Shown piece after piece: positions 3,656 through 29,268 of a DNA stretch of 34,502 nt. Below the pieces are notes generated by a model, which made no database searches, was not told the origin of the DNA, and saw nothing but the letters and a program-made list of their open reading frames with translations. A program made the position numbers and the translations under genes. The stretch is taken from the IMG/VR virus record IMGVR_UViG_3300042261_002398, positions 1 to 34,502 of that record. One strand, written 5' to 3'. Numbering within the stretch: position 1 is the first letter of the stretch; each line of letters opens with the position of its first letter. The stretch is from a virus.

Positions 3656-4716
3656 TATTCGTCCCTCCCTACAACAGAGACGTTAATAAAGGTGCAGTAT
3701 GCCGCCTGTCCTTGATCCACTTCAATGCGTGCCGATGGCGAAACAAGGACGACTTCTTGAACCCCCTCAACATGGAGCGCGGCCATCAGGCCGGAAATTG
3801 TAATGTCGTTGCCGCATTTATGACGTGCGGCAACATAGGCCTGCACTGAGACAAGCGCATTATTGCGCACGGTCCTGGCGTCCGGTCCACCATAGATTAT
3901 CAATTGCGCGATGACGGAATATTCAATGATCTCAGCGCTCATGACTTCAGCGGTATCGCAAAGCGGCAGTCGAGTTTCAGGATCCAGCGCATCCTGAACG
4001 AACGGCAGGATGCCTGCGCGTTCACCGTCGGCTACAGCGCCAGCCAGCGCGCCGGTAATGACCGTTACGCCAGTGGCAAAGTCATCGTCAAGGGTGAAAA
4101 TCGCGCCGCCCTCAAAGGCCAATTCCTGCCCGTTTGAAAGGGGTGCAAGAACGCCGGTAACGGCGAGCGATGTGTCGGCGTCGACATAGCCTTCCGGATG
4201 GTTGATTCGTGCGCCGAAACATGCGCCATTCCCATCCTTAGATAACACGGCCACATTCACGCGGCCGCCGATGCCCGGATTCCAGACAGAAACGTCTTTT
4301 ATTCCGCTATGTGCCGAGAGGGCGTGGAATTTATAGGCACCGACCGGACCGGCCACAGAATAGGCTTCCGGAGCCAATACAAGGCGTGCGCGGAAAGCAT
4401 CATTCGTTTCGCCAGCAAGACGGGCTACCGGAACGGCCATCGATGCGCCGATATGGTCAAGGTCTGCATCCAGCGCAAAAGCCAGCATGCGCGCCTTGGC
4501 CTTGTCGTTCATCTTCTGACGGAGCAGCAGCTCGCGATAGGCGGCCACTAAAAGAATCTTATAGGCAGGGTCGCTGGGCACCAGAGCGTTAAAGGTCGGG
4601 TCGAGCTGTTGCAGGCTCGCTAGCATTTCATTGAAGATGGCCTCGGCGGAAAGCGCTTCGACCACCTGCGGCGACGGCAGCTTGCTCAGGTCAATGGCTG
4701 TAAAAACACTGTTCAC
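3655..4716 (-). CDS. J: Baseplate assembly protein J (P2 gpJ / Mu gp47 family)
   Basis: 353 residues, the usual size for the wedge protein J. Visible family features are FNEMLASLQQLDPTFNALVPSDP near the N terminus (residues 28-50, quoted in part: FNEMLASLQQLDP), LLLRQKMNDKAKARMLAFA, and DLDHIGA, the conserved 'L..LG' position. It starts with GTG in a GTGA overlap with the stop of gene W, so translation is probably coupled. It builds the baseplate wedge with W and I. Confidence 0.93.
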   Translation of the reverse strand: MNSVFTAIDLSKLPSPQVVEALSAEAIFNEMLASLQQLDPTFNALVPSDPAYKILLVAAYRELLLRQKMNDKAKARMLAFALDADLDHIGASMAVPVARLAGETNDAFRARLVLAPEAYSVAGPVGAYKFHALSAHSGIKDVSVWNPGIGGRVNVAVLSKDGNGACFGARINHPEGYVDADTSLAVTGVLAPLSNGQELAFEGGAIFTLDDDFATGVTVITGALAGAVADGERAGILPFVQDALDPETRLPLCDTAEVMSAEIIEYSVIAQLIIYGGPDARTVRNNALVSVQAYVAARHKCGNDITISGLMAALHVEGVQEVVLVSPSARIEVDQGQAAYCTFINVSVVGRDE

Positions 4717-5066
4717 GAAATTTGTATTCCTTCAAGCACAACCGGTTCTCCGGTCGGTGTGTAATATCCTTCCAGAGTGATCGAGATATGCCCAGCCCGA
4801 ACCTGTTCGGAGTTGCTCACATCAAACAGAACCCGCGTTGTTTTAAGACGGGGCTCCCAGCGATCCAGCGCACCGGCAGTGGCGGCCACGAAGCGGGCGC
4901 GCACCTTCGCGTTGGTCGGCGCATCGATCAGGCCAAAAAGCTCGCTGCCATATTCGCGGCGGATCACCAGCGTTTCAGGAGCCGTGCGCAAAATATCCTC
5001 GATGCTCTGCCTCAAGTGCGCCAGACCACTCAACGGCTTCCCGGTGTCTTTGTGCATTCCATTCAT
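4713..5066 (-). CDS. W: Baseplate wedge protein W (gp25-like)
   Basis: 117 residues, the normal length for P2 gpW / T4 gp25-like lysozyme-fold proteins that start sheath polymerisation at the baseplate. The signature LRQSIEDILRTAPETLVIRREYGSELFGLID occupies residues about 18-48 (core: REYGSELFGLID). Its stop overlaps the GTG of J, and its start overlaps the stop of the upstream 82-residue gene. A palindrome CCGAACCTGTTCGG lies inside the coding region (4797-4810). High confidence from motif plus order. Confidence 0.93.
   Translation of the reverse strand: MNGMHKDTGKPLSGLAHLRQSIEDILRTAPETLVIRREYGSELFGLIDAPTNAKVRARFVAATAGALDRWEPRLKTTRVLFDVSNSEQVRAGHISITLEGYYTPTGEPVVLEGIQIS
4797..4810. repeat. 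Palindrome CCGAACNNGTTCGG, copy inside W
   Basis: CCGAACCTGTTCGG, a perfect dyad with a 2-bp centre. The same motif recurs at 13228 and 20829 in spacers and, with one mismatch, at 27692. This copy is inside coding sequence and does not share the wider flanks (GTCC...TCTT) of the two intergenic copies. Confidence 0.5.
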
Positions 5067-13177: not shown

Positions 13178-13281
13178 AGTTCTTGCTGCTTTTTCACAAT
13201 GTGCCGGAAACAGCAACAGGAGCCCGTCCGAACTGGTTCGGTCTTAATTCGGGAGCAGGGAAAGCAGGCAAGATTTAGCGG
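13178..13281 (-). other. Spacer between V and gp37 with palindrome and short cysteine-rich frame
   Basis: Contains the palindrome CCGAACTGGTTCGG. On the minus strand an uninterrupted frame of about 33 codons (…CFPCSRIKTEPVRTGSCCC…KKQQEL, abbreviated) runs to a TGA that overlaps the V ATG, but no ATG, GTG or TTG opens it. It could be the remnant of a small zinc-finger-like gene, or chance. Confidence 0.3.
13228..13241. promoter_or_regulatory. Palindrome CCGAACNNGTTCGG, intergenic copy 1
   Basis: CCGAACTGGTTCGG in the V-gp37 spacer. It shares GTCC on the left and TCTT on the right with the copy at 20829 (17-18 of 20 bases alike). Could be an operator or a hairpin; no T-run follows. Confidence 0.5.
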
Positions 13282-26526: not shown

Positions 26527-27000
26527 TTACCCCTTCATCCGTTTAAACTTCTCAAGACTCCGTCCTGCCACATACAGTCCGAGCAACGAAAAATAGCCAA
26601 TCAGCAGCGTGCTATCAAAAAATCGCTCCCGGCCCAACATGTGCCACACTTGATCCACCACCAGCATCACCGTCATTGCATACGCCGCCGTTGGCCGGAC
26701 GCGCTTCGTAAACAGGTCGTCTTCGTCGGTCTGGGCCTGATGAATCTTCGCCAGCGCCAGCTGGCCATCCGCCTCCGCACGGGCTTCGGCTGCCAGACGC
26801 TTTTGGGTTTCGGACTGCACCTGCCATTCCAGCTTTTCAATTTCAAACGCAACCCGCTCATTGGCCAACTCAGCCAGCACCGTCGTATTGCTTAGCGTGG
26901 CCCGTTCTTCCGGGGTAAACCTCTCATCATCCAGCAGCTTAACGACCGGCTCAATCGCTCGAGAAAACAGCCCGACAATCGCTCCGAAAACCGCACTCAT
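26527..27000 (-). CDS. Holin-like protein (3TM holin family)
   Basis: 157 residues. N-terminal amphipathic segment (MSAVFGAIVGLFSRAI), a charged helical middle (EKLEWQVQSETQKRLAAEARAEAD), then VRPTAAYAMTVMLVVDQVWHM and STLLIGYFSLLGLYVAGRSLE as two or three membrane helices. The motif KRVRPTAAY corresponds to the RP...Y region of the 3TM holin family used for phage or gene-transfer-agent release. It should make inner-membrane lesions at lysis. No endolysin gene is next to it. Confidence 0.75.
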   Translation of the reverse strand: MSAVFGAIVGLFSRAIEPVVKLLDDERFTPEERATLSNTTVLAELANERVAFEIEKLEWQVQSETQKRLAAEARAEADGQLALAKIHQAQTDEDDLFTKRVRPTAAYAMTVMLVVDQVWHMLGRERFFDSTLLIGYFSLLGLYVAGRSLEKFKRMKG

Positions 27001-27152: not shown

Positions 27153-27210
27153 GGGGTCTCCCGTTATCGGGCAGTTTCAGGCCCGCCCCGTTGTGTCGGT
27201 TTTGTCCCGT

Positions 27211-27576
27211 CTAACTATTCGCCCGGAACGCCTTCACCACGTCAACAATCGCGACAACTTCGATCGACAGATTGACGGCCACCGCAAAAAGCTTCTCAAC
27301 TCGATCTTCAATCTGATCGTTCGGTAAATCGAACTTACCGGCGAAGTGCGCGATGATTTCTTCGCGCTCGGCGGCGTCGAGGTCTTTCAGTTCGCCCGGC
27401 AGATCCGGAGCCGCCTTGATCGCGGCGATCGCGCCGGGAATGTGTTTGCTAAACGAAAGCCCTTCGCTGATGGAAAGTTTCTTGTCGTCGAGTGCGGCGG
27501 CAATATCTGTTCCGATGTCGAGAATCGTGTCCATCACGATGATAATGCTCCTAACGCCATTCGGATCTGTGCTCAT
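27211..27576 (-). CDS. Helical protein opening the late operon
   Basis: 121 residues from ATG (MSTDPNGVRSIIIV) behind AAAGGAGA; the longer frame would run through the leader hairpins into the terminator. Mostly alpha-helical: MDTILDIGTDIAAALDDKK, the block GAIAAIKAAPDLPGELKDLD, and a last amphipathic helix (AVAVNLSIEVVAIVDVVKA). Similar helical proteins of unknown role sit near lysis or head genes in other phages. No membrane helix or catalytic residues. As first late gene behind a structured leader it could be the point of translation control. Confidence 0.65.
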   Translation of the reverse strand: MSTDPNGVRSIIIVMDTILDIGTDIAAALDDKKLSISEGLSFSKHIPGAIAAIKAAPDLPGELKDLDAAEREEIIAHFAGKFDLPNDQIEDRVEKLFAVAVNLSIEVVAIVDVVKAFRANS

Positions 27577-27580
27577 ACCG

Positions 27581-27649
27581 GGGTCTCCTTTTGGTTTTAA
27601 AACCGGGAGACCCGCCCGCGCGGCTTGCGCGTTGTCGTGGCGGGCTCCC
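27581..27649 (-). promoter_or_regulatory. Late-operon leader with two mutually exclusive hairpins
   Basis: On the minus strand GGGAGCCCGCC (27649-27639) can pair with GGCGGGTCTCCC (27616-27605), 11 bp with one bulged base and an inner CGCGC/GCGCG stem. GGGTCTCC (27613-27606) can instead pair with GGAGACCC (27588-27581), which contains the Shine-Dalgarno of the next gene. The shared segment means only one can form. Between the second pair lies the palindrome GGTTTTAAAACC. The pattern fits an on/off translation switch or an attenuation leader. No ligand class was recognised. Confidence 0.6.
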
Positions 27650-27666
27650 TCAGAAGACCCAACCAT

Positions 27667-27702
27667 AAAAAAAACCGGCTCAGGATTTCACCCGAACCGG
27701 TT
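27667..27702 (-). terminator. Intrinsic terminator ending the early/middle operon
   Basis: Minus strand AACCGG … CCGGTT stem followed by eight T (with the last Ts of the stem, a longer run), 20 bases after the stop of the 55-residue gene. The upstream arm overlaps the palindrome copy at 27692. It separates early genes from the late leader. Confidence 0.8.
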
Positions 27703-27705
27703 CGC
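27692..27705. repeat. Palindrome CCGAACNNGTTCGG, imperfect copy in terminator
   Basis: CCGAACCGGTTCGC, one mismatch from the motif, followed by TCTT as in the two intergenic copies. It overlaps the 5' arm of the terminator. Confidence 0.4.
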
Positions 27706-27722: not shown

Positions 27723-27890
27723 TTATTTCGTCAGGCCGGTCAACTTCGACAAACCCCACGGAAAACGCATTTTAATTTCACGCCGGATACGTTCGCAAAT
27801 CGCAACCTTTCTTCCGTCGCACAGCAGCGTAACGCGCCCATACGGGTGGCTCAATTCTACAATGCAATCTGCTTTCTCTTCTTTCGTCAC
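27723..27890 (-). CDS. Small hypothetical protein, GTG start
   Basis: 55 residues from a GTG with AAGGAGG five bases upstream. A longer frame begins inside the preceding gene and has no such site. Sequence: VTKEEKADCIVELSHPYGRV at the start, ending MRFPWGLSKLTGLTK. Probably a small beta/alpha protein with a basic middle (RIRREIK). No family recognised. Last gene before the early terminator. Confidence 0.6.
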   Translation of the reverse strand: MTKEEKADCIVELSHPYGRVTLLCDGRKVAICERIRREIKMRFPWGLSKLTGLTK

Positions 27891-27934
27891 AGGTTCCTCC
27901 TTTCGCGCCACTAAGCGCAGCGCAGTCAGCACAA

Positions 27935-28126
27935 TCAATTCGCGGCCTGATCGCACAGCCGCCGCCATTCACGGGCCGTTTCGCGCGGATCGGTGAACTC
28001 TTTCCACGTTTCCCAATGTTCGGAACCGCCAATTAAATGCCGTTTAATCGCATACTCCCGGAAGCGGTAAACAAACCCGTCCACCGTCCGGTCCACCCAA
28101 AAGCTGTATCTATCCTTAAAACTCAT
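27935..28126 (-). CDS. Small hypothetical protein, tryptophan/arginine rich
   Basis: 63 residues, start overlapping the stop of the previous gene (TAAATG) and preceded by GGGAG. Contains YSFWVDRTVDGFVYRFREY and EHWETWKEFTDPRETAREW (separate blocks). Looks like a small soluble protein with a beta hairpin and helices. No family recognised. Small genes after the activator are common in Mu-like middle regions. Confidence 0.6.
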   Translation of the reverse strand: MSFKDRYSFWVDRTVDGFVYRFREYAIKRHLIGGSEHWETWKEFTDPRETAREWRRLCDQAAN

Positions 28127-28809: not shown

Positions 28810-29268
28810 TTAACCTCTGCCTTTCATCAGTTTTTCATAACGGCGGCGCTGGCGGCGCAGGTTTTCGCGCGCCACCATTTTTTCGACGGCACGTTCTGTC
28901 AACCCGTACTCTTTGGCCAGCAGCCGCACAACTTCACCGGCGCGGTACCGGCGGCAGACCTCGGCCTGGCGCAGAACCGTCCGGTAGTGGTGGGCGCGTG
29001 GCACCGCAATTCGTTCGCCGCCGAACAACGCGGAAATCTTGCGGGCAATCTCTAGCCCGACCGCCTGCGTGAGCACATGCGATGCATCCGGAGTTTTTGG
29101 AATCGTCACGCTCAAGCCGCCCACCTGATTGACCAGCCGCATAGCTGCTTTAAAGCCAGCCACGCGCTCGATCTCCCGCAGTACCGGCGGCAGTTCAGAA
29201 TTGCCGACCTCTGCGTTCGGCTCGGCCATTACTGGAACCTCCGCCATGAATGGAAAAAGATCAGCCAT
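28810..29268 (-). CDS. Mor/C-family transcription activator
   Basis: 152 residues from ATG (MADLFPF); a GTG 12 bases upstream is also possible. Family pattern: ELPPVLREIERVAGFKAAMRLVNQVGGLSVTIPK (core LREIERVAGFKAAMRLVNQVGG), LEIARKISALFGGERIAVPRA, and the C-terminal HTH RLLAKEYGLTERAVEKMV. In Mu, Mor turns on the middle promoter and its paralogue C the late ones. Only one member is seen here, so it may drive the late genes directly. Overlaps the end of gemA by eight bases. Confidence 0.88.
   Translation of the reverse strand: MADLFPFMAEVPVMAEPNAEVGNSELPPVLREIERVAGFKAAMRLVNQVGGLSVTIPKTPDASHVLTQAVGLEIARKISALFGGERIAVPRAHHYRTVLRQAEVCRRYRAGEVVRLLAKEYGLTERAVEKMVARENLRRQRRRYEKLMKGRG

Follow-up and report, generated by a model that had tools for sequence, protein, structure and literature searches.

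A candidate promoter-embedded read-through lock before the lysis genes of a Mu-like phage

The leader in front of the first late gene of a Mu-like phage may be a read-through lock embedded in the late promoter and acting on the lysis unit, a reading to which we give about even confidence. According to this reading, early-operon RNA that leaks through the terminator would run into the leader carrying the 5' arm of a helix, P1, and this arm would pair with the Shine-Dalgarno (SD) sequence around two further hairpins, P2 and P3, so that P0001, the first late gene, would not be translated. A Mor-family activator would bind a dyad in the terminator stem and RNA polymerase would start at about position 27655, inside the P1 5' arm. 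In the resulting late mRNA most of P1 would be gone, P2 would hold the segment GGGUCUCC, and the SD would be open. The selector is likely neither a ligand nor an attenuator but the point at which the RNA starts, by read-through or at the late promoter. Placing a terminator and a translational lock in series before the holin unit makes sense as a guard against premature lysis.

The window analyzed here is the whole 34,502-nucleotide stretch of IMG/VR virus record IMGVR_UViG_3300042261_002398, which belongs to a Mu-like phage and encodes a Mu-type transposase, MuB, Gam, GemA, portal, gpT head protein and protease I. Its phage genes are coded on the minus strand, where the activator is followed by overlapping small ORFs reaching to 27723, a strong terminator, the leader, P0001 and a holin-like gene.

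28810-29268, minus strand: Mor-family activator P0002 (Pfam Mor, E 1.3e-14; PHROG 836, E 1.7e-28)
27211-27576, minus strand: first late gene P0001, 121 amino acids, upstream of the holin gene, no family match
26527-27000, minus strand: holin-like gene in the same unit as P0001 (PHROG 3427, E 1e-8)

The P0001 protein gave no Pfam, PHROG or clear NCBIfam match and had no homologues in the GTDB genomes or the phage collection searched; a homologue is present on eight related phage contigs. Its AlphaFold model is all-helical (pLDDT 76) and found no significant structural match in BFVD, a library of viral structures. A longer ORF in frame with P0001, beginning at ATG 27666, was rejected as it has no SD and the extension is absent from the relatives L004, L005 and L012. 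The SD context of P0001 is repeated about 420 nt downstream, ahead of a short ORF (GGGAGACCCC, 27153-27163). Near the end of the late region lies a DNA methyltransferase gene (1150-1920; PHROG 56, E 3e-84), whose position matches that of the DNA modification gene mom in Mu.

A first-pass annotation of this DNA had described two hairpins sharing one strand between the early terminator and P0001, namely an 11-bp hairpin with one bulge and an inner 5-bp stem, said to free the SD, and an 8-bp hairpin said to cover it. Both pairings exist at that place on the minus strand, the first as P2 and the second as a helix that we call B. The fold contains the following elements.

27652-27660, minus strand: 5' arm of P1, GGGUCUUCU, an anti-SD segment overlooked in the first-pass annotation (fold and alignment)
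27581-27589, minus strand: 3' arm of P1, AGGAGACCC, the Shine-Dalgarno sequence with GGAG at 27588-27585 (fold)
27639-27649, minus strand: 5' arm of P2, GGGAGCCCGCC (fold and alignment)
27605-27616, minus strand: 3' arm of P2, GGCGGG(U)CUCCC, containing a second potential anti-SD segment, GGGUCUCC (27613-27606), held by P2
27593-27604, minus strand: P3, the small palindrome GGUUUUAAAACC (fold)

P1 comprises 9 bp (27660-27652 with 27589-27581), and P2 comprises 11 bp and one bulged U (27649-27639 with 27616-27605) with the inner stem CGCGC/GCGCG. Hairpin B pairs GGGTCTCC with GGAGACCC over 8 bp (27613-27606 with 27588-27581); GGGTCTCC is the strand that it has in common with P2, and the two helices are mutually exclusive. 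The minimum-energy fold of the full leader is a three-way junction of -50.0 kcal/mol in which P2 and P3 are formed and the SD lies under P1. Since P1 covers the SD while P2 stays formed, P2 alone does not free the SD, contrary to what had been proposed. The P1 5' arm falls outside the segment annotated earlier (27581-27649), and this third helix had been missed. The leader folded better than shuffled sequences (z -4.3 for 27672-27560; z -2.6 for 27652-27570). Hairpin B alone reached only z -1.3 against shuffles. Sequestration of the SD in the full leader exceeded that obtained with upstream shuffles (about 1 in 300). In the late RNA, P2 would hold GGGUCUCC, which otherwise would cover the SD. 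A gathering-threshold Rfam scan of the window returned no matches to a known RNA family or riboswitch. P2 was also considered as a second terminator and rejected, because the terminator scan passes only the upstream hairpin.

Where the late RNA would begin was predicted from the operator and its distance to a -10 hexamer, without use of the RNA fold.

27672-27703, minus strand: intrinsic terminator of the early operon, a 13-bp stem followed by a T-run, its 5' arm holding the operator
27693-27704, minus strand: late-promoter operator CGAACCGGTTCG, a dyad presumed to be a Mor-family site, one of the YGAACNNGTTCR copies; conserved before the P0001 homologue in L002, L004, L005 and L012
20830-20841, minus strand: second putative operator, a CGAACNNGTTCG dyad before the Mu-like I protease/scaffold gene
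13229-13240, minus strand: third putative operator, a CGAACNNGTTCG dyad before a baseplate assembly gene
4798-4809, minus strand: fourth putative operator, a CGAACNNGTTCG dyad within ORF 4713-5066 and ahead of a baseplate J-like gene
27662-27667, minus strand: TATGGT, the predicted -10 hexamer, 31 nt beyond the dyad centre and the best hexamer for the late promoter of the window
27653-27657, minus strand: predicted late start, 27655 +/-2, lying in the 5' arm of P1, from the operator/-10 geometry

The pattern YGAACNNGTTCR occurs four times in the window against 0.22 expected, and three of the four CGAACNNGTTCG dyads directly precede late units. Four copies at closely similar spacing are found in the L012 record (closely similar spacing, record G001) and three in the L002 record; reversed-pattern controls gave no operator matches. 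The half-sites read CGAAC at all four sites of the window and TGAAC at every site of the L012 and L002 records (TGAACNNGTTCA), a coherent change between genomes that is expected if each activator has its own preference. Judged from sequence, the CGAACNNGTTCG dyads are likely operators of the late activator that co-vary with it. The dyad CTGAACCSGTTCAG comes after a separate terminator in L002 and L012 and itself makes up the terminator's 5' arm in L004, L005 and the window. Upstream of the P0001 homologue in L003 and L008 (position 4001) stands a different dyad, ACTGC-N6-GCAGT, at the same 32-nt spacing from TAGGTT; the Mor protein of these two phages has a different helix-turn-helix.

When -10-like hexamers were scored in 17 promoters from the window and related phages, which are partly homologous and so do not amount to 17 independent observations, the score peaked clearly at 32 nt (and 31 nt) beyond the dyad centre; the -10 rules were taken from E. 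coli and may not be those of the host. At Mu Pm, Mor binds a 16-bp element with 5-bp inverted repeats centred at -43.5 (PMC4390567), and the dyad-to-hexamer spacing seen here fits that geometry. The window holds both a Mor-family gene and a dyad with a -10 hexamer at the matching distance. This geometry places the predicted late start at about 27655, within the P1 5' arm and upstream of 27605, as the first-pass annotation requires. Stated as a rule, the operator centre plus 44 nt would predict late starts in uncultured Mu-like phages. Placing the -10 element within the palindrome TTTTAAAA/GTTTAAAC and the start beside the SD was rejected, as the 31-32 nt operator spacing puts the promoter elsewhere. 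Before the terminator, ORF 27723-27968 contains a minus-strand sigma-70-like element, TTGCGA-18-TAAAAT (27769-27798), which is a possible origin of read-through RNA.

Accessibility of the SD depended on the 5' end of the folded RNA. The probability that the window SD was unpaired was 0.00 for 5' ends at or upstream of 27658, rose to 0.04 at 27657 and 0.15 at 27656, and reached 0.47-0.60 for 5' ends from 27655 to 27649. From 27648 onward it was again close to zero, with the SD closed by B until the B arm was lost. The predicted start sits in this 7-nt opening of the curve. Among 400 shuffles of each leader, closure together with an equally large opening was obtained in none for the window, 1.5% for L005 and 4.5% for L002. 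In L005 the value rose from 0.19 in the read-through RNA to 0.74 at the predicted start, and in L002 from 0.25 to about 0.5. The L004 SD was at 0.00 in the read-through RNA and still closed (0.04) at the predicted start. Pairing of the SD in RNA initiated upstream was thus seen in the window, L004, L005 and L002, and not in L012, where the SD was always open (0.77) and no lock was present.

Whether the late RNA is open or closed hinges on 2-3 nt of the predicted start, and this is where an alternative enters. If transcription began at G27660-G27658, the late mRNA itself would carry P1 and its SD would be closed, so that the first protein of the lysis unit would be damped or delayed until coupled translation, a protein or RNA processing opened the SD. 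Purines do stand at 27660-27658, G27658 is a plausible start with TTTTAT as its -10, RNAs beginning at these positions fold closed by 5-10 kcal/mol, and in L004 all starts close to the predicted one leave the SD closed. Such a start, however, requires a spacing of 28 nt from operator to -10, which is off the 31-32 nt peak, and L005 and L002 are open at their predicted starts. We regard a closed late leader as possible but unlikely.

The alignable leader is that of L004 (same contig as L011) and L005, so that the alignment consists of these two and the window. P1, P2 and the small palindrome are present in both relatives. In P1, 90% of cells were paired and two pairs were changed on both sides; in P2, 97% of cells were paired and one pair was changed on both sides. 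When the arms were slid by 1-3 columns, 0-1 two-sided pairs and 43-64% pairing remained. Re-dealing the 3' letters among the three sequences equalled this score in 174 of 500 shuffles, and the two-sided changes are therefore support and not proof. Pattern searches for the combination of operator and terminator and for the leader DNA found only L004 (L011) and L005, so deeper covariation is not possible. L002, whose leader is different, also has its SD covered, here by GGUGUCUC/GAGACACC.

These comparisons bear on the view that P1 and P2 are by-products of a GC-rich leader with a chance complement to the SD, and that control is purely transcriptional, through the terminator and the activator. 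A clear lock is absent from five of the nine leaders (L012, L003 and L008-L010), not every member of the family has the lock, and few sequences were available for covariation. Chance complementarity sits poorly with the shuffle tests for the window and L004, with the two-sided changes in P1, and with the coincidence of the predicted start and the P1 arm. We consider the by-product view quite unlikely.

The switch proposed in the first-pass annotation, in which P2 (ON) and B (OFF) would interconvert under a signal, is very improbable. The window does contain the two helices, and they are mutually exclusive. Against the switch, P1 beats B in the full leader by a margin of about 7 kcal/mol (-42.5 with B forced versus -49.2), constraining the predicted late RNA to B costs about 2 kcal/mol relative to the open fold, no Rfam family matches, and B, with 83% of cells paired and no two-sided changes, is broken by unpaired positions in L004 and L005 and wins only in RNAs starting at or downstream of 27648. 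The expectation that both pairings would be conserved was borne out for P2, which is kept along with P1 in L004 and L005, and failed for the 8-bp pairing. The broader proposal that late expression is under RNA control in addition to a Mor-type activator is supported for the first late gene, in the form of SD sequestration; the two-state mechanism is unlikely.

Leaders at the I and baseplate promoters of the window are just ~20 nt long. In PI and PP of records G001 and G002 the SD pairs with sequence 5' of the predicted start, with shuffle fractions of 0.03-0.38. Among all late promoters, with values uncorrected for the number tested, the contribution of upstream sequence to SD closure fell below 0.05 only for Plys of the window, Plys of L004 and PP of G001. 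In two relatives (L045/L043 for PI and L042/L046 for PP, at about position 1501) the SDs of the I and baseplate units are complementary to the promoter just 5' of the start (UCCUGUUC/GAACAGGA; UCUCAUG/CAUGAGGA). That the late promoters of these Mu-like phages generally encode the complement of their own SD just upstream of the start is a doubtful generalization; if it were true, RNA entering from outside would be translationally dead and only activator-started RNA live, with separate locks at Plys, PI and PP.

A literature search for a lock of this kind in Mu-like phages, of incomplete coverage, returned nothing relevant. Transposase genes of the IS10/IS50 type carry hairpins that hide the ribosome-binding site only in transcripts entering from outside. 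The leader described here resembles them in that the ribosome-binding site would be hidden in such RNA, and differs in lacking homology and in belonging to a phage late operon.

As at Mu Pm and Plys (PMC4390567, PMC4461284; AF083977), the terminator adjoins a promoter predicted to be activator-dependent, the activator dyad lies about 31 nt before the -10, and there are several late units, lys, I and P among them. The lys ribosome-binding site of the Mu record is partly paired in a read-through fold and comes directly after the promoter, whereas here a 79-nt structured leader intervenes. Unlike Mu, which has Mor and C, the phage has one Mor/C-type protein among the proteins scanned.

The closest functional parallel is gene e of T4. 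There an inhibitory helix arises in the long early transcripts, and the late RNAs begin within the 5' strand of this helix; early-transcript hairpins are also found on soc, 49 and I-TevI (PMC3014915). By analogy, the SD would be sequestered in long early transcripts and a lysis gene protected from early translation. The resemblance is one of function; no homology or membership is claimed. Unlike gene e, the leader described here is associated with the operator of a Mor-type activator in a Mu-like phage and not with a T4 late promoter, the operator is carried by the terminator stem, and the late leader would retain a large hairpin, P2, holding a second anti-SD segment. If the read-through lock is real, then lock, terminator and operator are fused compactly within ~130 bp, and the answer of T4 lysozyme to premature lysis is also found in a transposable, Mor-activated phage.
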